In this document: piece after piece, positions 1-43,443 of the stretch
Position numbering within the stretch: position 1 is the first letter of the stretch
How the letters are laid out: every line of letters starts with the position of its first letter
DNA from: Parcubacteria group bacterium CG1_02_58_44
GTDB lineage: Bacteria; Patescibacteriota; Patescibacteriia; SG8-24
DNA length: 51,617 nt
Assembly (NCBI GenBank): GCA_001872545.1
Contig: MNWN01000018.1
Coordinates: 1-51,617, forward strand
Direction of reading: 5' to 3'
The notes under the pieces: model-generated
Databases searched by the model: none
Told to the model about the DNA's origin: nothing
Seen by the model: only the letters and a program-made list of their open reading frames with translations
Made by a program: the position numbers and the translations under genes

Positions 1-183
1 ATTGGGGAAATCCTGCGGGAACATCCTCCACTGGCATGCGGTGCGCAGCATGTACAGCACCGCACAAAAGACGTCGTAGAGATCTACGGTGCGAGGTCGC
101 GTTTTCTTTCTCGCAGATTCAAGAAGCGGAAGAATTATTGCAAATTGCTCTCGAGTGATGTCGCTCGGGTAGGGTTTACGCAT
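1..183 (-). CDS. IS5-family transposase, N-terminal part, cut by window edge
   Basis: Reading leftward from an ATG at 183, an open frame runs off the window and begins M-R-K-P-Y-P-S-D-I-T. It continues with a helix-rich stretch containing DLYDVFCAVLYMLRTACQWR and then MFPQDFP. This is the N-terminal domain (DUF4096 type) of IS5/IS4-like DDE transposases, which start with a short basic tail, '(L)T..Q...I.PLL', and 'R..(L)DA..Y.L.TGCQWR.LP.DFP'. Only about 61 codons are inside the window, so the catalytic DDE residues cannot be checked. A terminal repeat and a leftward hairpin terminator lie just outside the start codon, as expected for an insertion sequence end. Confidence 0.85.
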   Translation of the reverse strand, partial: MRKPYPSDITREQFAIILPLLESARKKTRPRTVDLYDVFCAVLYMLRTACQWRMFPQDFPN

Positions 184-206
184 ATAAAAAGCGGGCTAAC
201 GCCCGC
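184..206 (-). terminator. Leftward hairpin terminator at the IS end
   Basis: On the minus strand a 7-bp GC-rich stem (AGCGGGC / GCCCGCT, loop GTTA) is followed by TTTTTATA and then directly by the transposase ATG. It would stop transcription entering the element from outside, a common way for insertion sequences to limit transposase expression. Confidence 0.45.
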
Positions 207-209
207 TCA

Positions 210-238
210 TTGTATCTGAAATGGCGAGGAAAGATTAT
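210..238 (+). promoter_or_regulatory. Possible outward promoter in the IS end
   Basis: TTGTAT at 210-215 and GATTAT at 233-238 are separated by 17 bp and point rightward into the surface protein gene that starts at 264. The start site would be near 245. Four of six bases match in each hexamer, so this is a modest candidate. Confidence 0.3.
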
Positions 239-255
239 AGACAGGCTCTAAGCCC
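239..255. repeat. IS terminal inverted repeat (AGACAGGCTCTAAGCC)
   Basis: Read toward the transposase this is GGCTTAGAGCCTGTCT, the GAG(N)CTGTC type of end seen in IS5-group elements. Fifteen of 16 bases recur at 21215-21230. It is taken as the right end of the element whose transposase starts at 183. Confidence 0.5.
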
Positions 256-263
256 CTAGGGGT

Positions 264-1574
264 ATGTACAATTTATTACGCCTGACTTTTCGCCGGGTGA
301 CCAACGTTGCAGCCGTATTGGCTGTTTTTTCGTTGCCTTTCTGTGCGTCGGCCACCACGATCGGCACGAACATATCGACCGACGGGACATTGACCGTCAA
401 CGGCAATACGACAATCGGCAATGCGGCCACCGATACGGTCACTATCACCGCCGTACTGCAGGGCGCCTCGGCCCTGGTGTTCGAGGGTATCGCTATCGAC
501 GACTACGAGACTACGTTCGCCTTCGCGTCTCTGACCGGCGACCGTACGGTTACCTTTCCGGACGCCAGTGGCTACCCACTACTGTCGACGGCCAACATTG
601 GAGCGGCTAATGCCGTTTGGGTCGGCAATAGTTCGTTGATTTTTGAAGGTTCGTCGGTGGATGCGTACGAGACTACGCTACTTATCACCAATCCGACGGC
701 TGTTCAAACGATAACTTTTCCGGATGCCAGCGGTACGGTAGCCCTGACTTCGGATCTTGCCGGATCCGGTGCCACAACCGCCCTCGACAACTTGGCCTCG
801 GTCGACATCAACGCCTCTTTGATCTCCCATACAGCAGCCACTTACGACTTGGGTTCGGAGGATCTCTACTGGAATGACCTCTTCCTCGACAATCAGATCA
901 GCTTCGAGGGGACGTACGACGATTACCAGACGACTCTAATGGCGGCCGATACGACTCTGATAGACAAGACAATTACCCTGCCTGACTCTGACGGAACGGT
1001 CATGCTCAGCACTCTGGCCGGCAACGCTCCCGACGTTAAGAATTCTGTGACTGGAACTAGCAATGGTCTGGTTTTCGAGGGTACAGCTGACGACTACGAG
1101 ACCACTCTGACCGTCTTGGATCCCGCTTGGGGTGACAACTCGTTTATCTTTCCCGACATCGGCGGTGGAGATTTTACCGTTATTACCACCGGCAACGTCG
1201 GAGACATCACCGGAATTCCCTCCGTTACTGCTCTGACCAATGTCACTACCATCTCCGGGCTGACCAGCCTAACGATAGGTGCTGGCGTTAGTTCCGTTCC
1301 GATCACCGCCCACCTCTCCTCTACGATAACCGTCGGAGATGATGGAATATTGGCGGCCGGGGACTGTCATGCGCCGTACGAAAAGACAGTAACCGGGGCC
1401 GAATCTGGCGACACCGTAGTCCTCGGTCCTACGTTTGACTTTGCCATCGGGGGTCTCTTGGCCAAGGGAGTCGTCTCCGCTCCCGATACCGTCTGGGTCA
1501 TCGTCTGTAATTTTTCGGCTATGGCAGTTCCGCATGCTGCCGGCACCTGGAGAGTCGACGTCTGGAAGCATTAG
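264..1574 (+). CDS. Exported surface protein with FEG/DYETTL/TFPD repeats (paralogue 1)
   Basis: The 436-residue product starts with a signal peptide (basic MYNLLRLTFRRV, then a hydrophobic run ending in CASA). The mature part opens with IGTNISTDGTLTVNGNTTIG and carries four repeats of about 40-65 residues with the pattern FEG-x-DDYETT-x-TFPDxxGTV (near residues 73, 124, 212 and 273). The C-terminal 100 residues have the 'GAESGDTVVLG...V..PDTVWV..CN...GTWRVDV' pattern and end in WRVDVWKH. Similar repeats are familiar from tail-fibre and large surface proteins of phages and marine bacteria, so a fibrous beta structure is likely. Function is unknown. The next gene is a paralogue with the same two ends. 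A terminator follows at 1605. Confidence 0.85.
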   Translation: MYNLLRLTFRRVTNVAAVLAVFSLPFCASATTIGTNISTDGTLTVNGNTTIGNAATDTVTITAVLQGASALVFEGIAIDDYETTFAFASLTGDRTVTFPDASGYPLLSTANIGAANAVWVGNSSLIFEGSSVDAYETTLLITNPTAVQTITFPDASGTVALTSDLAGSGATTALDNLASVDINASLISHTAATYDLGSEDLYWNDLFLDNQISFEGTYDDYQTTLMAADTTLIDKTITLPDSDGTVMLSTLAGNAPDVKNSVTGTSNGLVFEGTADDYETTLTVLDPAWGDNSFIFPDIGGGDFTVITTGNVGDITGIPSVTALTNVTTISGLTSLTIGAGVSSVPITAHLSSTITVGDDGILAAGDCHAPYEKTVTGAESGDTVVLGPTFDFAIGGLLAKGVVSAPDTVWVIVCNFSAMAVPHAAGTWRVDVWKH

Positions 1575-1604
1575 GTTTTCTTCAGAAAAATGTTGGATTG
1601 GATT

Positions 1605-1634
1605 CCGCCGGATTGCCCGGCGGTTTCTTTTTTA
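1605..1634 (+). terminator. Rho-independent terminator
   Basis: A perfect 7-bp stem CCGCCGG/CCGGCGG with a 5-nt loop is followed by TTTCTTTTTTAG, 30 bases after the stop codon at 1574. Confidence 0.85.
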
Positions 1635-1689
1635 GAAAATGATGTTCCCTACAGCGTAAATTTTTGTCGCCTTCAATTTCAAAATCGTG

Positions 1690-1715
1690 TTGACGACAAA
1701 AACTTGTGTTATACT
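1690..1715 (+). promoter_or_regulatory. Promoter with extended -10
   Basis: An extended -10 TGTTATACT ends at 1715. A TTGACG lies at 1690-1695, but only 14 bp upstream of the -10, so the TG extension probably matters most. The predicted start near 1722 lies downstream of the earliest in-frame start at 1706, which supports the ATG at 1787 for the next gene. Confidence 0.6.
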
Positions 1716-1786
1716 ACCGTCGTAATTATCCACAAATAAAATTTCCTCAATTAACTATTTTCGAGGAGATTAGTTTTTTAGGGAGT

Positions 1787-2818
1787 ATGAATAAATCATT
1801 TCGCTCATCCGCCCGCTGGGCGGCCAACGCCTTAGCCGTGCTGGCTGTCGCCTTGGTGCCGTTCGCCTCTTCGGCCACCACCACGATCGGCACGAACATC
1901 TCGACCGGCGGTACGCTGACGGTCAATGGCAACACCACGATCGGCGATGCCCTCACCGATACGCTGACCGTCACGTCTTCGCTGCTTGGCGGTATCTACT
2001 TCGAGGGTCTGACGACTGATGACACCTATCAGACGCTGCTGCAGGTGGCCGATCCTGCCGCCGGCGACATAACGATCACTCTACCTAACGTAACCGGCAC
2101 GGTCGTGACCACAGGCGACACCGCTTCGGTCACCGGCACGATGATCACCGACGACACGGTTGTTTTGACTACCGATACCGCCGGCAACTACGTAGCTTCG
2201 GTGGCCAACGGTTCGGGCATTACGGGCGGCTCAGCCGGCTCCGAGGGTGCGGCCCTGACTCTGGCCCTGGGCGCGCTTACCGCCGACTGGACCGCGACGA
2301 CAGGCATCTTTGACATAATCTTGGCCAACAACGACTCGCAGCTTCAGATCATGGGCGATGACGGTACTTTCTACGGTACTTTCAACGTTGATGTTCTTTC
2401 CTCCGATACCACATATACCTTTCCTGAAGTCGGTGGTACAGGCACCATTATTACGAATGCCAATACCTCTGACATTCTCGATTTGGCGTCAGTTACAGTT
2501 ACAACGGATTTGACTATTGGAGAAAGTGCTGCTGCCGTTGCTATTACCGGTCATCTCAGCGTGACTTCGGTAATCGATGTTGCTGACATTACTAAGGGGA
2601 CCTGTTCTGATCTGACGACGGTCGGGGTCACTGGTGCCGCAGTCGGCGATACGGTTGTCCTTGGTGCTCCGGCCACTCTTGAGGCAGAACTTTTGCCCTT
2701 CGGTTTCGTTTCCGCTGCAGACACAGTCACGATCCGTATTTGTAACACTAACGATGACGCCGGTTTAAACATCGATCCAGGATTGGCTACATGGCGTGTT
2801 GACGTCTGGAAGCACTAA
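1787..2818 (+). CDS. Exported surface protein, paralogue 2
   Basis: The 343-residue product has a signal peptide ending in FASSA and then IGTNISTGGTLTVNGNTTIG, almost identical to the protein at 264. Two clear repeats survive (YFEGLTTDDTYQTLL..ITLPNVTGTV and the degenerate MGDDGTFYGTF..TYTFPEVGGTG). The last 90 residues again have 'GAAVGDTVVLG...VSAADTVTIRICN' and end in TWRVDVWKH. The two paralogues thus share conserved ends and differ in repeat number, as expected for a fibre that grows by internal duplication. I chose the ATG at 1787 because the promoter at 1690-1715 excludes the earlier start. The next surface gene begins 39 bp downstream with no terminator between, so the two are probably co-transcribed. 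Confidence 0.85.
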   Translation: MNKSFRSSARWAANALAVLAVALVPFASSATTTIGTNISTGGTLTVNGNTTIGDALTDTLTVTSSLLGGIYFEGLTTDDTYQTLLQVADPAAGDITITLPNVTGTVVTTGDTASVTGTMITDDTVVLTTDTAGNYVASVANGSGITGGSAGSEGAALTLALGALTADWTATTGIFDIILANNDSQLQIMGDDGTFYGTFNVDVLSSDTTYTFPEVGGTGTIITNANTSDILDLASVTVTTDLTIGESAAAVAITGHLSVTSVIDVADITKGTCSDLTTVGVTGAAVGDTVVLGAPATLEAELLPFGFVSAADTVTIRICNTNDDAGLNIDPGLATWRVDVWKH

Positions 2819-2857: not shown

Positions 2858-4189
2858 ATGGCAAACCTATCTAAAGTCAAGATCGGGTTGAGTCGGTTGC
2901 TTGCCGTAGCTGTCGCCGCGGCGACAGTGGTAGGTGGCCTGGGCCTGTCGAGTTCGACGGCCCTGGCCGCCACCACGACGACCTTCTCAGCCGACACCTC
3001 GCTCTACATGAGCGGTCCTCCGGCCATCACCCTGACCATCGATTCCGGCTCCGAAGCCGATTCTCTCGAGGTCACTACGACCACCTTCACGGTGGTGGTC
3101 TCGGCCGGTTCGACCTTCACGGTCAGGTATCCGGGTCCCACTCCGGGCAACCTGGCCAACAACGGCGGACTGGCCTCCTGCAGCTACTCGGCCGGCGACA
3201 ACGTGATTGCAGTTGCCGGACCGGTCACGGCCACCTTCACGCCGGCCGCGGCCCCGGTCTGCAATACAGTTCCGGCCTCCAGCGGCGGCGGGGGCGGAGC
3301 TCCGGCGGCCTATGCCTACCTGCTGAGCGGACCGGTCGACGGCGGCACCTATGACGCCGGCAGCACGGTCAGCCTGTCCTGGAACGCGGGCGGTCTGGGC
3401 GTCTCCTACGCCAAGATCTCGCTCTCGACCAACGGCGGCACTTCCTGGACCACGATCGTCGACCAACAGCCGACCTCGGGCTCCATGTCCTGGGCAGTGC
3501 CCAGCGTCACGACCTCCCAGGCCAAGCTGAAGGTCGAGGGTACCAACGCCAGCGGTTCGACCATGGCCTACACGGTCAGCACCGCGACCTTCTCGATAGT
3601 CGGTTCGGCTCCCGGTGCGGACGATGAAGAAATAGTCGTACCCCCGGTCGAGGAGACTCCGGTCGTCCCGGATCCGGATTCCGACCCGAATATCATCGGC
3701 GGCTTCAGCCCGCAGTCGGCCCTGAACGCCACCCGCTCGATCAACACCGACCTCGACATCACGCCGGCCGCCGAGGAGACCGACGTCTACTGCGTCTCGG
3801 GTTCGCTGATCAAGAGCGCCGACAGCTCCGCGGTCTACTACTGCGGTGCCGACGGGAAGCGCTACACCTTCCCGCACGAGCGGATCTTCTACACCTGGTT
3901 CGAGGACTTCGACGACGTGATCGTCATCGACGCCGAGACCCTGGCCCGGATCCCGCTCGGCGGCAACGTCATGTACCGCCCGGGACGTCGGATGATCAAG
4001 ATTCAGTCCGATCCCAAGGTCTATGCCGTGATCCGCGGCGGAGTTCTCCGCTGGGTTACGACGGAACGGGTCGCCCAGGAGATCTACGGCGACGACTGGA
4101 ACCAGATGATCGACGACGTGAACGTGGCTTTCTTCTTCAGCTATACGATCGGCGAGCCGATCACTGAAGCGGATCTGGGGCTGTTCTAG
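2858..4189 (+). CDS. Exported protein with Patescibacteria-type C-terminal surface domain
   Basis: The 443-residue product has an N-terminal signal peptide (residues 1-38, ending ALAA). A beta-rich Thr-rich domain follows, then a Gly-rich linker (SSGGGGGAP near residue 145). Next is an Ig-like domain of about 95 residues (LLSGPVDGGTYDAGSTVSLSW... SWTTI... TATFSI), then an acidic Pro-rich linker. The last 130 residues run from 'CVSGSLIKS...AVYYCGADGKRYTFPHE' through 'YRPGRRMIKIQSDPKVYAV' to 'GGVLRWVTTERVAQEIYG'. From memory of the family this last domain recurs in exported proteins of Parcubacteria-type genomes, where its role (wall attachment or scaffold) is not established. Two Cys in it may form a disulfide. 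Confidence 0.85.
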   Translation: MANLSKVKIGLSRLLAVAVAAATVVGGLGLSSSTALAATTTTFSADTSLYMSGPPAITLTIDSGSEADSLEVTTTTFTVVVSAGSTFTVRYPGPTPGNLANNGGLASCSYSAGDNVIAVAGPVTATFTPAAAPVCNTVPASSGGGGGAPAAYAYLLSGPVDGGTYDAGSTVSLSWNAGGLGVSYAKISLSTNGGTSWTTIVDQQPTSGSMSWAVPSVTTSQAKLKVEGTNASGSTMAYTVSTATFSIVGSAPGADDEEIVVPPVEETPVVPDPDSDPNIIGGFSPQSALNATRSINTDLDITPAAEETDVYCVSGSLIKSADSSAVYYCGADGKRYTFPHERIFYTWFEDFDDVIVIDAETLARIPLGGNVMYRPGRRMIKIQSDPKVYAVIRGGVLRWVTTERVAQEIYGDDWNQMIDDVNVAFFFSYTIGEPITEADLGLF

Positions 4190-4225
4190 TCTCGCGCCGC
4201 TCTCGGTTCGCATCTCGCGGACCAA

Positions 4226-4258
4226 CGAAAAACCGCCGGGCTCTCCGGCGGTTTTTCG
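4226..4258. terminator. Bidirectional terminator
   Basis: GAAAAACCGCCGG and CCGGCGGTTTTTC form a stem with A and T runs on both sides, so it can end transcription in both directions. It closes the surface-protein unit. Confidence 0.85.
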
Positions 4259-4280
4259 TCTGCCTTGTTTTTCTCCGGGC

Positions 4281-4590
4281 TGTCGTCCCGACGGCTATAC
4301 TCTGTCGTCCCGGACCTGATCCGGGACCCAGGAGCAGCCTTGCCGGCACTGGATCCCGGATATCGCTCGCTGCGCTCGCGATTCCGGGATGACAAACTAA
4401 AAAGGAATGCAGTTCCGAGATGACAAAAAAGCAATGTCGTCCCGACGGCTATACTCTGTCGTCCCGGACCTGATCCGGGACCCAGGAGCAGAAAAGATCG
4501 GACTCTGGATCCCGGATAATTGCTGACGCGATTTCCGGGATGACAAATTTAATAAGAGTTGCGATTCCGGGATGACAGATTAAGAAGGAA
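4281..4590. repeat. Tandem copies of a dispersed palindromic repeat (154-bp period)
   Basis: A 57-bp block beginning TGTCGTCCCGACGGC occurs identically at 4281-4337 and 4435-4491. Each copy goes on with a CCCGGACCTGATCCGGG palindrome, a TGGATCCCGGAT block and one or two TTCCGGGATGACA tails (near 4382, 4411 as a variant, 4533 and 4564). A diverged third copy lies at 26363-26464. The make-up matches the 'GTCATCCCGG...GATCCGGGA' class of extragenic palindromes scattered through many bacterial genomes. No gene is seen in 4190-4628. Confidence 0.85.
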
Positions 4591-4628
4591 TGAGGTTCCG
4601 GAACGACAGGTTTTTTCGTGACGGCTGT

Positions 4629-21576: not shown

Positions 21577-24500
21577 ATGATGAATCCAGTTCCGAACGCC
21601 ACCTCTACCGCTGACCGCCGTACGGAGGAGAGTCGGCGCGTGGTCTCCGCTATATTGGAACAGATCCCCGGGCTGCAGAAGGTAAAACAAGTCCGGCAGC
21701 GGGACGGCTCAGCGGTAGACTTTAGGCCGGAACAGGTTGGAATGGCGCTGTCGGCGGCTCTGACTCGGGTCGGCATTGACGACCAGATGGCGCTGGCCAA
21801 ATGCACTCACCAGTCGCTGATGCGGCTGGAGCGGGAGTTCGACGAACGTACCATTCCGACTACCGACGACATTAGTCGGATCGTGGGTACGGTTTTGATA
21901 GACAACAATCTTTCCTTCGCGGCCAAGAAGTACTTCGCGGCCATGCTGCCGGAACGCAGCCGTCAGCCACAGAGGCTGAGCGCCGGGTTGAAGTTCAGTC
22001 GGCTGTTCACCAGGGCAGAGGTCCATCCCTACGATCAGGTCGAATGGGAAAGGAGGGATGCGGTCATCAAGAACGAGAAGGGACAGACGGTTTTCGAACA
22101 GCGTGGAGTCGAGGTCCCCAAATCTTGGAGCCAGTCCGCGACCAATATCGTGACGTCGAAGTATTTCCGCGGCGAGATCGGCAAGCCGGAACGGGAATAT
22201 TCGGTCCGGCAGATGGTCGATCGGGTGGCTCAGACCATCGCCCATTGGGGGCGTCAGGACGGATATTTTGCGTCCGAGGAGGATGCGACCGTTTTCGAGG
22301 CGGAGCTGACGTCCATACTCGTCAACCAGCGAGCGGCCTTCAACAGTCCGGTCTGGTTTAACGTCGGCGTCAGTCCGCGGCCGCAGTGCTCGGCCTGCTT
22401 CATCAACTCGGTACGTGACGACATGCGCTCGATCCTTAACTTGGCCGTGACCGAAGGAATGCTCTTCAAGTACGGCTCCGGCACCGGCACCAACCTGTCG
22501 TCGCTGCGTTCCTCCAAGGAGCTGCTGGCCAACTCGTCCGGCAAGTCGTCCGGTCCGGTCTCGTTCATGAAGGGCTTTGACGCCTTCGCCGGCGTCATCA
22601 AGTCCGGCGGCAAGACCCGGCGGGCGGCCAAGATGGTCATTTTGAACGTCGACCATCCGGACATCGAGGATTTCGTCGAATGCAAGATCAGGGAGGAGCG
22701 CAAGGCCAAGCAGCTGATCAAGGCCGGGTACGACGCCTCGATGGACGGCGACGCCTACAGCTCCGTATTCTTCCAGAACGCCAACAACAGCGTGCGGGTC
22801 ACGGACGACTTCATGGGCGCGGTGGTTGACGGTCACGAGTGGACCACCAGGGCGGTGACTACCGGACAGGTGATGGGCTCCATGCCGGCCAAGTCGTTAT
22901 TTCGCAAGATTTCGCAGGCGGCCTGGGAGTGCGGCGATCCGGGACTGCAGTTCGACTCCATGGCCAACCGCTGGAATCCGGTCCCGAATTCGGGACGAAT
23001 CAACGCTTCTAATCCATGCGTCACCGGCGACACGCTGGTGGCCACGTCTGATGGCTGGCGCCGCATCGACTCGCTGCTCGACGGACCAATGTCGACGATA
23101 GGATCCGATGGTCAGGCACACGGCACCGGACCGGCCTTCTCGACCGGAACCAAGCCGGTCTACCGGCTGACCACCAGGGCTGGCTTCGAACTCAAGCTGA
23201 CCGCCGATCATCGCGTCCTGACTTCGAACCGCGGTGACGTGCCGGCCTGCGAACTGACTAAAGATGACATGGTGCTGTTGGGGCGGCCGGGCTTCGGTTC
23301 GGCTGAACTGGACCAGAGGCTGGGTGAGTTCTTGGGGTTGCTCGTGGGCGATGGCTGCATCAGCGGCGAGCAACGGACGGCCGCATTGACGCTGTCGCCG
23401 GACGAGTCTGCCGTGGCCGAGCGGGTGCATGCCCGACTGACCGAGTATCGGCAGGAGAAGGCTGCCGATGGACGGGCGGCCCGCGAGACGGAGGTCACCA
23501 AACCCCAAGGTACTTTGCGGATCAACACCAGTGCCAAGTGCGTAACGGATGAGCTGGACCGGCTGGCCGTTCTAGACCGCGGCAGCCAAGCCAAGGAATT
23601 TATGCCGGATGTCTTCGATCTAGACGAAGGCTCGTTGGCCGCCGTGCTTCGTGGCCTGTTTACCGCCGATGGTACCGTCGCCAACTACGCAGACAAGTCG
23701 CAGTATGTAGGACTCGACAGCGTTTCGCTCGGTTTGCTGGGGCAGGTTCAGCTGCTGCTGATGGCGTTCGGAATCAAGTCGAATATCTATCGTGACCGGC
23801 GGGTCATCGGCCAGACCACGGCGCTGCTTCCTGACGGTCAGGGTGGCAGCAGGGAATACGAGGTCAGTCAGATTCACAGCCTACGCATCAGCTGCAGTTC
23901 GCGTCTGGCGTTCGAGAAGAGGATCGGTTTCGTTGCTGGGAGCGTCAAGGTCGACCGGCTGTCAGCGATGAACCGGGAGGTCGGAACTCATGAAGACCGG
24001 TTTGAGGACCAGGTCGAGTCTTTCGACTACCTAGGAGAGGAACCGGTCTACGATCTGACCGAACCGGACACTTCGCATTTTGTCGCCTCCGGCTTGGTGG
24101 TCCATAACTGCTCCGAATACATGTTCCTCGACGATTCGGCATGCAACCTGTCGTCCCTGAACCTCCTGAAGTTCGTCCGGTCCGACGGATCGTTCGATAC
24201 CGGGTCCTTCCGGCAGGCGTCCGAGGTGATGATCACGGCCATGGAGATACTGGTCGGCAACTCGTCGTATCCCACGCCGTCTATCGAGGAGAACAGCTAC
24301 GACTTTCGGGCGCTGGGCATCGGCTACGCCAACCTGGGTGCGCTGCTCATGTCGTACGGCTTGGCCTACGATTCCGACGACGGGCGTAACTTCGCCGCGG
24401 CTGTGACCGCGCTGCTGACCGCCTGCAGCTACCGGCAGTCGGCGCGCGTGGCTTCGGTCCTCGGTCCGTTCCGCTACTACCGCATGAACGAGGAGTCCTT

Positions 24501-25983
24501 CCTGCGCATCATCGGCATGCACCGCGACTATGCCCACGCCATCCGGCCGGCCGGCGTGTCCGGCGAGCTGGTCGATGAGGTAAAACGGAGTTGGGACGCC
24601 GCACTCGAGGAGGGGATGACGCACGGATTCAGGAACGCGCAGATATCGCTGCTGGCTCCGACCGGAACGATCGGCTTCCTGATGGACTGCGACACCACCG
24701 GCATCGAGCCGGACATCGCACTCGTCAAGTACAAGTGGCTGGTCGGCGGCGGCCTGATGAAGATCGTCAACGGCACCGTCAGACCGGCGTTGGTTCGGTT
24801 GGGCTACGGCGACGGACAGATCGTCGACATCATGAAGTTCCTGGACGAGAACGACACCATCGAGGGGGCGCCGCATCTCAAGGATGAGCACCTGTCGGTG
24901 TTCGACTGCGCCTTCCGACCGGCCAAGGGCCAGCGCTGCATCAATTACATGGGACACATCAGGATGATGTCCGCGGTCCAGCCGTTTCTGTCCGGCGCCA
25001 TTTCCAAGACGGTCAACCTGCCCAGCGAGGCCACTGTCGAGGACGTCGAGGACGCGTATCTCGAGGCCTGGCGGTTGGGACTCAAGTCCATTGCCGTCTA
25101 CCGCGACGGGTCCAAGGGTCAGCAGGTACTGACCACCTCGGTCGACCAGGACAGGAAAGTAAGCGGCGCCGAGGCGGCGCGCGAGCTGGCGGCGGCCAAC
25201 GAGGAGATCAACGGCCTCAGGAAGGATCTTGAGGCCGCGATGTCTAGGACCAGACTCGACCGTCGGCCCCTGCGTCGTCACTTGCCGGACGAGCGTCGGT
25301 CGGTGACGCATAAGTTCTCGATTGCCGGACATGAGGGCTACATTACGGTCGGACTGTACGACGACGGCACTCCGGGTGAGATGTTCATCCGCATGGCCAA
25401 GGGCGGTTCGGTGATCTCGGGCCTGATCGACGCCTTCGCCACTACGACCTCGATCGCCCTGCAGTACGGCGTACCCCTGAAAGTCCTGGTCAACAAGTTC
25501 GTGCATCTGAGGTTCGAACCGTCTGGCTTCACTTCCAACCCAAATATCCGTATCGCCAAGTCGATTGTCGACTACCTGTTCCGCTGGCTGGCGCTGAAGT
25601 TCCTGCCTCTCGAGGATCAGATGGCGGTTGGGGTGAACATTGACGCGCCGATCTTGGCCGAGGCCGGACGTGAGGATGTCGAGGCTTCACTTGATACGGT
25701 GATGGACGACAGCAGCGTGCTGAACGGCGATCCGGTCGTGCCGTCCGCCAAGCAGATGAACATCGACGAGGGACGGAAGGGGAGCGGGGCTGCAGGGCCG
25801 TCTTCCGACAGTCGGTCTCCGGACGCATTGGCCGACCGGTCCGAGCCGTCGTCCAACTCGCTGACCATGGGCTTCGACATCCAGTCCGACGCCCCGCCCT
25901 GCGATACCTGCGGCGCGATCATGGTCAGGAACGGGGCGTGCTATAAGTGCCTGAACTGCGGGGGAACCAGCGGCTGCAGCTAG
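21577..25983 (+). CDS. nrdJ: Class II (B12-dependent) ribonucleotide reductase with intein
   Basis: The 1468-residue precursor makes deoxynucleotides with adenosylcobalamin as radical source. An ATP-cone lies at about residues 35-125. The catalytic barrel follows, with a redox Cys in QCSACFINSV, substrate-site residues in KYGSGTGTNLSSLRSS and a later LAPTGTIGFLMDCDTTGIEPD loop. Residues 481-844 are an intein inserted in the active-site motif N-P/C-S-E; after splicing, Cys845 becomes the thiyl-radical cysteine. The C-terminal part has a TSCPD domain (HKFSIAGHEGYITVGL) and a zinc-ribbon tail with CDTC and CYKCLNC. The spliced protein would have about 1104 residues. A neighbouring adenosyltransferase gene fits the cofactor need. 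Confidence 0.95.
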   Translation: MMNPVPNATSTADRRTEESRRVVSAILEQIPGLQKVKQVRQRDGSAVDFRPEQVGMALSAALTRVGIDDQMALAKCTHQSLMRLEREFDERTIPTTDDISRIVGTVLIDNNLSFAAKKYFAAMLPERSRQPQRLSAGLKFSRLFTRAEVHPYDQVEWERRDAVIKNEKGQTVFEQRGVEVPKSWSQSATNIVTSKYFRGEIGKPEREYSVRQMVDRVAQTIAHWGRQDGYFASEEDATVFEAELTSILVNQRAAFNSPVWFNVGVSPRPQCSACFINSVRDDMRSILNLAVTEGMLFKYGSGTGTNLSSLRSSKELLANSSGKSSGPVSFMKGFDAFAGVIKSGGKTRRAAKMVILNVDHPDIEDFVECKIREERKAKQLIKAGYDASMDGDAYSSVFFQNANNSVRVTDDFMGAVVDGHEWTTRAVTTGQVMGSMPAKSLFRKISQAAWECGDPGLQFDSMANRWNPVPNSGRINASNPCVTGDTLVATSDGWRRIDSLLDGPMSTIGSDGQAHGTGPAFSTGTKPVYRLTTRAGFELKLTADHRVLTSNRGDVPACELTKDDMVLLGRPGFGSAELDQRLGEFLGLLVGDGCISGEQRTAALTLSPDESAVAERVHARLTEYRQEKAADGRAARETEVTKPQGTLRINTSAKCVTDELDRLAVLDRGSQAKEFMPDVFDLDEGSLAAVLRGLFTADGTVANYADKSQYVGLDSVSLGLLGQVQLLLMAFGIKSNIYRDRRVIGQTTALLPDGQGGSREYEVSQIHSLRISCSSRLAFEKRIGFVAGSVKVDRLSAMNREVGTHEDRFEDQVESFDYLGEEPVYDLTEPDTSHFVASGLVVHNCSEYMFLDDSACNLSSLNLLKFVRSDGSFDTGSFRQASEVMITAMEILVGNSSYPTPSIEENSYDFRALGIGYANLGALLMSYGLAYDSDDGRNFAAAVTALLTACSYRQSARVASVLGPFRYYRMNEESFLRIIGMHRDYAHAIRPAGVSGELVDEVKRSWDAALEEGMTHGFRNAQISLLAPTGTIGFLMDCDTTGIEPDIALVKYKWLVGGGLMKIVNGTVRPALVRLGYGDGQIVDIMKFLDENDTIEGAPHLKDEHLSVFDCAFRPAKGQRCINYMGHIRMMSAVQPFLSGAISKTVNLPSEATVEDVEDAYLEAWRLGLKSIAVYRDGSKGQQVLTTSVDQDRKVSGAEAARELAAANEEINGLRKDLEAAMSRTRLDRRPLRRHLPDERRSVTHKFSIAGHEGYITVGLYDDGTPGEMFIRMAKGGSVISGLIDAFATTTSIALQYGVPLKVLVNKFVHLRFEPSGFTSNPNIRIAKSIVDYLFRWLALKFLPLEDQMAVGVNIDAPILAEAGREDVEASLDTVMDDSSVLNGDPVVPSAKQMNIDEGRKGSGAAGPSSDSRSPDALADRSEPSSNSLTMGFDIQSDAPPCDTCGAIMVRNGACYKCLNCGGTSGCS
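23017..24108 (+). other. Intein with LAGLIDADG homing endonuclease inside nrdJ
   Basis: The intein spans precursor residues 481-844 (364 residues). Block A starts CVTGDTLVAT with nucleophile Cys1, and block B is KLTADHRVLTS with the TxxH motif. The two endonuclease helices are LGEFLGLLVGDGCIS and LAAVLRGLFTADGTVA, each with the acidic residue that binds metal. The C-terminal splice end is VYDLTEPDTSHF...ASGLVVHN followed by Cys+1. All splice residues (Cys1, block B His, penultimate His, Asn, Cys+1) are present, so splicing and homing are both expected to work. Confidence 0.95.
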
Positions 25984-41657: not shown

Positions 41658-41775
41658 AATAAATAGCCAGCTCGCCTTCGTGACTCCTTGGAAAGGAGGG
41701 ATTTTAGAACCAAGTAAACCCACCGTTCATCGTGTTATTTTTATCATGCGGTCCGCTGTCCATAATCCTACATCC

Positions 41776-43443
41776 ATGAAAAAAACTGTAATCTTACTAT
41801 CCTTGCTTTTAATGGTTTTGGCCGTTACTCCCAGTTTGGCGGCGACATCGATCGCCGAAAGGGTCAGGGGAAAGATCGTCTTGCAGGTTGAAAGCCATGG
41901 GGAGGCTCATTATGTCTCTCCGGACAATCTTCGGAGATACTATTTGGGCCGACCTCAGGATGCTTTTGACATAATGCGGACCATGGGATTGGGAATAACC
42001 GACGCCAATCTGGCCAGAATTCCCAAGGACACCGACAGCTGGACCGGAGAAACCCCTTTCATAAATCTCATAAGGGGCAAGATTTTGCTTCAGGTCGAGC
42101 AGCATGGCGAGGCTTGGTACGTCTATCCGGACAACGGCAAGAGATACTTTTTGGGACGTCCCAGCGACGCCTTTAACATCATGAGCAGTTTGGGGCTCGG
42201 TATCTCGACCAGAGATCTTTCGACTATTGCCGTGGGGACGATGGCTGCAAGTGAGACAGAAGAGACAAATGGGAACGGTCAACCGGTACCAGCTGACGAA
42301 GAAGATGCGTCGGGTGACGTCGGCAGCGGCGATACAATTGTCAACACAAACACTGAAGATCCAAATTCTGTTGTCGTAAGCAGCGTTTCCGCCCTGATGA
42401 CTGCCATCGAAAACGCCAACAACGGCAGCAAGAAGACGATTCTGATTGAAGACGGAACCTACACGCTAGGCAATATGCTCTGGGTTTCGGCGGACGGGGT
42501 TACGGTGAGAGGCCGTTCGGGAAACCGCGAGGCGGTTATCCTGCAGGGCGACGGGATGACCGGCAGCGTTTCGCACATCTTTAATGTCGCCGGAGACGAT
42601 TTTACCGTCCGTGATCTGACCCTAAGGAGGGTTGCCAATCATGCAATCCAACTGCAGGTAAACGTCGACGGTTTTACCGTCGATAATGCCCACTTCTTGG
42701 ACACGGGCGAGCAGATGCTGAAGGTCGCCTATGATGCAGGGAACATGTCGGCAAGTTCCGATGGCGGCTTGGTCGAGAACAGTCTGTTCGAATATAGCGC
42801 CGGGCGCGGGCCGCAGTACTATATCGGTGGGGTCGACGCGCACAACGCCAAGAATTGGATTGTCCGTGACAACGTCTTCAAGAACATCAAGAGTCCTAGC
42901 GACGACATCGCCGAGTTTGCCATCCATTTTTGGTCTGAGTCGGCGAATACCCTAGTCGAAAGAAACACGATCGTGAACTGCGACCGGGGAATCGGCTTTG
43001 GTCTCGGCGATCGCGGTCATGTCGGCGGGACCATCCGCAACAACATGATCTACCATGACGGCTCGGAGGGATTCGCCGACGTTCAGATCGGACTTGAGGA
43101 CGCCAGAAATTCGCAGGTCTACAACAATACTATTTTCATGGCCAACAGCTATCAGAATGCCATCGAGTATCGCTTCGAAAGCACGACGGGGGTGCAGATC
43201 TACAACAACTTGACCAACCGGGCCATCACTGCCCGTGACGGAGCCTCAGGAACAGTCGCGAGCAACATCACCAATGCCCAGGCCGGTTGGTTCGTCTCCC
43301 CGTCGTCGGGAAATCTCCACTTGAGCAGCTCCGTCTCTTCGGTCGTAGATCAGGGGCGAAACATCTCCGGATTAACCAACGATTTCGACGGTGAGTTACG
43401 GCCGAGGGGGAGTGGAATAGATGTCGGTGCAGACGAGCTTTAG
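41776..43443 (+). CDS. Exported right-handed beta-helix protein with N-terminal surface repeats
   Basis: The 555-residue product has a signal peptide (MKKTVILLSLLLMVLAVTPSLAA). Two copies of a 55-residue domain follow (GKIVLQVESHGEAHYVSPDN..YYLGRPQDAFDIMRTMGLGI and GKILLQVEQHGEAWYVYPDN..YFLGRPSDAFNIMSSLGLGI), a module of Parcubacteria exported proteins. After a linker comes a pectate-lyase-like beta-helix with repeated 'V.N..F......IV.N.I' turns (FTVRDLTLRRVANHAIQLQ, WIVRDNVFKNI, TLVERNTIVNCDRGIGFG, SQVYNNTIFMAN). The end DFDGELRPRGSGIDVGADEL is common in choice-of-anchor polysaccharide-binding proteins. A sugar-chain lyase or binder at the cell surface is likely. I chose ATG 41776 because of the signal peptide. 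Confidence 0.85.
   Translation: MKKTVILLSLLLMVLAVTPSLAATSIAERVRGKIVLQVESHGEAHYVSPDNLRRYYLGRPQDAFDIMRTMGLGITDANLARIPKDTDSWTGETPFINLIRGKILLQVEQHGEAWYVYPDNGKRYFLGRPSDAFNIMSSLGLGISTRDLSTIAVGTMAASETEETNGNGQPVPADEEDASGDVGSGDTIVNTNTEDPNSVVVSSVSALMTAIENANNGSKKTILIEDGTYTLGNMLWVSADGVTVRGRSGNREAVILQGDGMTGSVSHIFNVAGDDFTVRDLTLRRVANHAIQLQVNVDGFTVDNAHFLDTGEQMLKVAYDAGNMSASSDGGLVENSLFEYSAGRGPQYYIGGVDAHNAKNWIVRDNVFKNIKSPSDDIAEFAIHFWSESANTLVERNTIVNCDRGIGFGLGDRGHVGGTIRNNMIYHDGSEGFADVQIGLEDARNSQVYNNTIFMANSYQNAIEYRFESTTGVQIYNNLTNRAITARDGASGTVASNITNAQAGWFVSPSSGNLHLSSSVSSVVDQGRNISGLTNDFDGELRPRGSGIDVGADEL

Follow-up and report, generated by a model that had tools for sequence, protein, structure and literature searches.

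Trimeric autotransporter adhesins are long trimeric beta-fibres with variable heads and a C-terminal beta-barrel membrane anchor. Among phage proteins, the Klebsiella phage tailspike KP32gp38 ends in a lectin-like (LEC) domain that is reported, in the sections of the source available to us, to be necessary and sufficient for trimer formation (PMC13082707). For the way in which ultrasmall bacteria of the candidate phyla radiation (CPR) choose and hold a host, the sources, as far as their text is accessible, report type IV pili and a small number of envelope proteins as candidates (PMC10633639, PMC12206443), the envelope proteins of Saccharibacteria carrying domains like glycan-binding ones (PMC10633639). 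In Ca. Paceibacteria that parasitise archaea, the hosts being methanogens, the most highly expressed genes with a signal peptide and no known function include those of secreted peptidoglycan-binding and immunoglobulin-like proteins (PMC10936435). Two further sources mention adhesion domains or attachment and, in the parts available, neither a fibre-partner gene pair nor a tailspike-type tip (PMC13059738, PMC12625730); within the accessible parts of the open-access literature, no description of either was found for CPR-type bacteria. Here we analyse a locus at the start of a 51,617-nucleotide stretch (the window) of Parcubacteria group bacterium CG1_02_58_44, whose genome has 1,061,238 bases in 51 contigs; the window begins at base 1 of its contig (C29). 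Two tandem genes, A and B, had been described in an earlier note as paralogous fibre-like proteins with phage-tail-type repeats beside an insertion sequence (IS); downstream lies a third open reading frame (ORF), ORF3, which we call the partner. We consider it moderately probable that the locus holds a two-gene surface-fibre cassette, pairing a trimeric phage-type fibre with a cell-wall anchor, and that the cassette serves adhesion.

The paralogy of A and B is borne out: both frames are present and match over their whole length (blastp E 2e-39, 31% identity), and A has no third match in the whole genome (E<=1). The list of ORFs opens B at GTG 1706, and we took ATG 1787 as the likelier start. 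Both proteins are built in the same order, with a signal-like segment, a common base (TIGTNIST.GTLTVNGNTTIG), a stem of beta-repeats and a common C-terminal domain. Their ends had been called identical; they are homologous, and the final nine residues, TWRVDVWKH, are the same in both, while the N-termini match at 63% and the C-terminal domains at 44-47%. The hydrophobic segment that opens each of them, with a helix predicted at residues 2-23 of A, makes export likely.

The stem repeats are homologous to those of phage fibres, a trait of proteins of tail fibre or tailspike type. With a profile of 13 repeats taken from Pelagibacter phage HTVC008M, four repeats were found in A (19.5-48.0 bits) and one clear repeat in B (34.0 bits), a second in B being weak (3.4 bits) and inside the shuffle range; the best of 1000 shuffles of A reached 8.9 bits and that of B 7.3 bits, and a domain E <1e-3 at Z=1 was reached by 4/1000 and 7/1000 shuffles, respectively. 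The difference in repeat number claimed earlier is thus four against one. Among nine phage records, A matches proteins of Pelagibacter phages and of one cyanophage, and the nearest stem among 66 viral loci belongs to a protein of 424 aa encoded among the virion genes of the podovirus-like contig L020 (43% over 190 residues; E 1.6e-21, a value for that small set). Like A and B, the fibre-like proteins of HTVC008M and the L020 protein carry repeats of the form FEG..D.FETTL....PTADRTIT.P...GT, and the latter shares the LTVNGNTTIGDA base and a signal-like start; those read differ in lacking the C-terminal domain of A and in lying within phage virion gene blocks. In scans of A, B and ORF3 against Pfam, PHROGs and NCBIfam, the best whole-protein match was that of A to phrog_38058, a "tail fiber protein" (E 1.3e-4). 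Two virion-block proteins (L020:3787-5061 and L012:9761-10255) have signal-peptide-like N-termini and the stem grammar or the tip of A and B.

The stems also appear to be exchanged. G001, a genome of the same genus, contains a fibre fragment truncated at the edge of its contig, in which a B-type signal (28/30 residues identical) is followed by a stem of A type (successive pieces identical to A at 33/36, 25/44 and 25/33 residues), a chimaera that points to module exchange. The earlier suggestion that the fibres spread by duplication holds for one plain tandem duplication; beyond that, G001 speaks for the exchange of modules as much as for copy number. Stem types vary widely: the fibres of L168, L176 and L157, from other genomes, carry repeats of the type NTA.G..AL..NTTG..N, which resemble those of the YadA head.

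The last ~90 residues of A, which we call the tip, were modelled by AlphaFold2 as a confidently folded beta-sandwich (predicted local distance difference test, pLDDT, 92.7) that resembles, on the model, certain lectins and the domains in which phage tailspikes end. A viral structure library gave 20 matches to it at E<=1e-3. Matches in the PDB included discoidin II (Z 8.9, root-mean-square deviation, rmsd, 2.7 over 90 residues) and, among phage and phage-like proteins, the last domain of KP32gp38, the solved tailspike closest to the tip (VIA-align Z 7.9, rmsd 2.7, 85 residues; in another PDB entry Z 8.1, rmsd 4.7, 89 residues), LKA1 gp49 (Z 7.6, rmsd 3.0, 89 residues), phi297 gp61 (Z 7.5, rmsd 3.0, 87 residues) and the R2 pyocin fibre (Z 7.0, rmsd 3.0, 75 residues). 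Four lectins, the Helix pomatia and Helix aspersa agglutinins (the latter at Z 7.1, rmsd 2.9, 85 residues), SLL-2 and discoidin II, grouped as H-type lectins, score Z 6.1-8.9 against the model of the tip, a range in which common beta arrangements also score, and no lectin family matched by sequence. Absence from the fold listings was not taken to exclude any family. The LEC domain of KP32gp38 shares with the tip its terminal position and its beta-sandwich fold; it differs in sequence (14-16% identity), no enzymatic beta-helix is seen in A or B, and these open with a signal-like segment and carry a pair of cysteines. Unlike the beta-barrel anchor of trimeric autotransporter adhesins, the C-terminus here is a soluble beta-sandwich in the model.

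By sequence, too, the tip has phage relatives. A profile seeded with A, B and one 164-aa phage protein found the domain in 8/380 genomes of the class, the studied one included (one of the eight, G016, is marginal and was not counted on), and in 10 viral loci; in a set of named genomes, it found three loci, two of them CPR-type (one Ca. Terrybacteria) and one a Streptosporangium record. In the ORFs read, from phages (99-1019 aa) and CPR-type bacteria, the domain sits at the C-terminus or within ~10 residues of it, and nine long CPR-type proteins, those of the window included, possess it. Against annotated phages, the tip of A has one significant record (MW202554, E 9e-8). Its relative L102 matches 10, including the annotated tailspikes of the E. 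coli phages HSE2 and SZH-1, and it is only through this intermediate that the tip of A reaches the SZH-1 tailspike (URG18185.1), where the match stops ~5 residues short of the stop, at the extreme C-terminus. The homology to tailspike C-terminal domains extends to phrog_27156, the one tail spike family among PHROGs matches of tip members that are mostly of unknown function; A's own tip matched phrog_19253 at no better than E 0.078. These relatives, SZH-1 and phrog_27156, differ from A and B in being virion proteins. Looked for in phages, as the earlier note had proposed for those of CPR, the domain was found in phage proteins and in none of a phage shown to infect CPR bacteria, the hosts of metagenomic contigs lying outside that search. 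In a phylum-wide draw, a 20-row tip profile found the own genome and two weak matches among 379. The tree of the 20 domains has one well-supported branch among 17 inner ones, its CPR rows need three changes, and it does not settle the direction of transfer. Sequence searches of the PDB with A, the tip alone and the tip profile gave at best an antifreeze-adhesin repeat (E 0.002), which we judged compositional.

A cysteine pair (A 368/415) is present in 9/9 long CPR-type members (A, B, L086-L090, L105 and L107), of which six have a visible signal-like start and three (L086, L088 and L107) are N-terminally cut. The L012 phage protein, which bears a signal, has the pair too; it is complete in 0/8 other phage members and is incomplete in L106 (Streptosporangium) and in L091, a short CPR-type ORF with no visible signal. 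The distribution would fit a predicted disulfide added in exported versions. The outcome that would have refuted the fibre reading, a globular fold of another kind together with a lack of homologues among fibres, was not obtained. With phage-type repeats and a C-terminal domain common to phage proteins by sequence and by fold, the reading as phage-type fibres is correct in respect of homology.

Of greater interest than A and B themselves is the recurrence of what we define as the fibre-partner cassette, a partner gene beside a fibre gene in the window and elsewhere. In stretches of up to ~12 kb fetched round 29 fibre-base and five tip matches, the same kind of secreted gene adjoins many fibres. 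A hidden Markov model (HMM) trained on 11 partners was run over 39 loci (the window, L010, L011, L105, L107 and L152-L185) and recovered 16 more partners in the 28 remaining loci, against 0/37 ORFs from the rest of the window. In a census of 30 genomes, chosen for a fibre or tip match, 27 partner copies were found (E<=1e-3), 14 in the model and 13 held out; 11 of the latter adjoin a fibre, one lies at a contig end and one, on contig C41 of the own genome, does not. Another gene intervenes in three of these 11 (G140, G176 and G008), the partner is upstream of its fibre in G004:C73 and G008, and four fibre neighbours are known by reading only (G195:C50, G004:C9, G260 and G176). Across 285 genomes of the class, 59 have the partner (E<=1e-3), 46 the fibre base (E<=0.01; one to three matches per genome having any) and 34 both, against 9.5 expected; minus the 14 model-building genomes, 20 of 271 have both, against 5.3 expected (p 2.3e-10). 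The N-terminal model A6 missed fibres found via the partner model, and fibre counts based on it are low estimates.

A fresh set of 33 stretches with unread partner copies, plus one of G001 already known, gave 30 copies in 29 loci at partner E<=1e-8, and for 29 of these copies the upstream gene could be read. The gene immediately upstream is on the same strand and fibre-like in composition in 16/29 (15 on reading, as the upstream gene of L214, a false positive, is by reading another surface protein), against 2/17 immediately downstream; the cut was chosen after the table had been seen, and 1e-9 gives 15/28. One gene intervenes in L206, L215 and perhaps L216, and the fibre is downstream of the partner in L197 and L213. 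In the first set, 16/222 other ORFs pass the same composition test, nine of them fibres by reading. The partner-model matches in L223 and L221 look false by reading.

The partners vary at their C-termini. PG_binding_1 occurs in four of the 27 scanned (L155, L158, L011 and L179), and some ten members of the new set share, by eye, a tail like WDAVRAIAYSGA.R. A recurrent neighbour, some copies of which end in a wall-binding domain, is what one would expect of an anchor. In domain make-up, the partners resemble the peptidoglycan-binding and immunoglobulin-like proteins of Ca. Paceibacteria, a likeness by description and not by comparison of sequences; the accessible text of that report mentions no fibre partner (PMC10936435). 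Wzy_C (O-antigen ligase) is encoded upstream in 5/7 scanned neighbours, and these genes suggest glycan decoration; at A, the contig starts at the IS and the genes upstream lie outside the sequence. A one-pass membrane family (PTMA.I.D..AL type) stands, by reading, between or beside fibre and partner in L164, L167, L181, L183, L191 and L216 and is a possible third component. The own genome's second partner (L186:7134-8393, G000:C41) is fibreless and lies near a 1349-aa protein with a GRRYVFPNEKTY domain.

From the observed homology with phage proteins in both stem and tip, the predicted fold of the tip and the recurrent gene pair, we infer export, trimer formation, anchoring, glycan binding and use in attachment. 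A and B would leave the cell by the Sec route and form surface fibres with the architecture of phage receptor-binding proteins, with a signal peptide, a "TIGTNIST.GTLTVNG" base, a stem of phage-type beta-repeats and a lectin-like tailspike tip, the last of which would trimerise the chain at its C-terminus. ORF3 and its relatives, with a conserved domain of ~120 residues and a variable C-terminus, would be a dedicated exported partner whose most likely task is to fasten the fibre to the cell wall, leaving the tip facing outward to bind a glycan on another cell. The function is a grounded hypothesis, and the cassette combines parts of familiar kinds in a new way. More tentatively, CPR-type bacteria may own a widespread two-gene surface organelle of recruited phage fibres, trimers whose stems and tips can be exchanged, which a dedicated partner would hold on the wall and a ligase encoded nearby would in some cases glycosylate, and which sets the host that is recognised. 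If so, their host range would evolve as that of phages does, by swapping of tips, and host choice would be tied to phage-type receptor-binding modules; the gene family, being recognisable, offers defined proteins for expression, labelling and testing.

Several observations weigh against this reading. The Z values of 6-9 in the PDB may reflect a common beta-sandwich, dUTPases and plant-virus capsids scoring 4-5, and the best PDB E value from Foldseek was 0.022. No Pfam model fits the tip, and no lectin model does so at E<=0.1 for the 20 domain members. The tip is also rare, at 8/380 genomes of the class with one of them marginal. The range of KP32gp38 matched by the tip is, to judge from its terminal position, the LEC domain, and this domain alone is reported, in the accessible sections, to form large multimers and not to bind capsule (PMC13082707), so that neither the formation of clean trimers nor the binding of sugar follows from the fold. 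The full-length model of A is poor save for the N-terminal helix and the tip; the stem (residues 24-348, pLDDT mostly <60 as a monomer) is compatible with a fold attained only in the trimer and equally with disorder. Among the partners, 23/27 have no PG_binding_1, five of the 27 being cut by a stretch end (L011, L163, L165, L169 and L180), and the domain scan found none in ORF3 itself. The co-occurrence statistics ignore shared descent; taken down to 1e-3, the fresh set gives 16/32; and partners with no fibre directly next to them are not uncommon, namely G000:C41, L200, L208, L209, L211, L217, L219, L220 and, by reading, L214. No promoters were recognised at the locus.

Of the other explanations, the one that survives best, though we think it rather unlikely, is that these are surface-layer or sheath-like proteins, fibre and partner coating and protecting the cell with no binding of a host. 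The gene pair recurs while the tips vary, several fibres read in related genomes have short tails with cysteine at their ends and no tailspike tip, and the Wzy_C genes would fit a glycosylated coat. The small number of fibre bases per genome, the receptor-binding type of the tip and the G001 chimaera speak for adhesion instead, none of them decisively. Cell-cell aggregation, biofilm formation or a phage decoy, with no attachment to a host of another species, we regard as improbable: phage-type tips could bind the cell's own glycans, but tips and stems vary between genomes more strongly than we would expect of self-recognition. Least probable of all is a prophage remnant or phage cargo, with A and B as tail-fibre genes of an element inserted beside the IS, since, for all that stem and tip are of phage type and the contig edge hides the upstream side beyond the IS, the N-termini of A and B are signal-like, the downstream genes are chromosomal by reading (superoxide dismutase, M23 peptidase and spermidine-synthase-like ORFs), similar gene pairs occur in other genomes of the class and no capsid, terminase, tail or other virion gene was recognised on reading the ORF lists of the window, phage models having been run on A, B and ORF3 only.

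Table 1. Features at the start of the window (positions in the window; aa, amino acids).
Feature	Position	Strand	Basis or remark
IS5-family element end, transposase N-terminal part at 1-183	1-252	-	PF13340, NF033580; contig start
Fibre protein A, 436 aa	264-1574	+	ORF; four phage-type repeats; tailspike-type tip
Putative signal peptide region of A, ~residues 1-30	264-353	+	Helix 2-23 in model; N-terminus conserved in alignment A6
FEG repeat 1 of A, residues 71-103	474-572	+	28.2 bits
FEG repeat 2 of A, residues 125-164	636-755	+	48.0 bits
FEG repeat 3 of A, residues 212-249	897-1010	+	19.5 bits
FEG repeat 4 of A, residues 269-297	1068-1154	+	21.0 bits
C-terminal tailspike/lectin-like domain of A, residues 344-436	1293-1571	+	Alignment A3; pLDDT 92.7; fold matches
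Terminator-like hairpin 3' of A	1605-1623	+	7 G-C pairs then T-run; consensus match, not proof
Fibre protein B, 343 aa	1787-2818	+	ORF; likely ATG at 1787
FEG repeat of B, residues 71-112	1997-2122	+	34.0 bits
C-terminal tailspike/lectin-like domain of B	2528-2815	+	Alignment with the domain of A, 46-47% identity
Partner protein ORF3, 443 aa	2858-4189	+	Held-out match to partner HMM, E 3.1e-15; census
Conserved partner domain of ORF3	2879-3298	+	Alignment A9; two near-invariant cysteines in family
"GADGKRYTFP" C-terminal domain of ORF3, residues 312-438	3791-4171	+	Own-genome matches
Terminator-like hairpin 3' of ORF3	4225-4264	+	15-bp perfect stem

The IS that had been noted beside A is there, as the N-terminal part of an IS5-family transposase. 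On this fragment, PF13340 scores above its cut-off (E 5.3e-14), and NF033580 (E 2.3e-17, 63.4 bits) stays under its whole-protein cut-off of 110, as expected of a fragment. The same ~250 bases occur in three further contigs of the genome, two of these at or near base 1. As a multi-copy element, three of whose four copies lie at the beginning of a contig or close to it, it probably marks an assembly break at the start of the window; the adjacency of IS and fibre probably need not mean anything, and we dropped a dedicated role of the element.

Given the gap of 39 bases between B and ORF3, the hairpin after A and the 15-bp hairpin after ORF3, B and ORF3 look like one transcript. No Pfam model names the C-terminal domain of ORF3; several places in the genome match this part, and repeats of the DGKRYTFP or RRYYLGRP type recur at 41680-43443 of the window. 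By reading, a REP-like intergenic element that starts GTCGTCCCGACGGCTATACTC occurs twice at ~4260-4610, and an ORF like ribonucleotide reductase, with an intein-like insertion, lies on the forward strand at 21577-25983.

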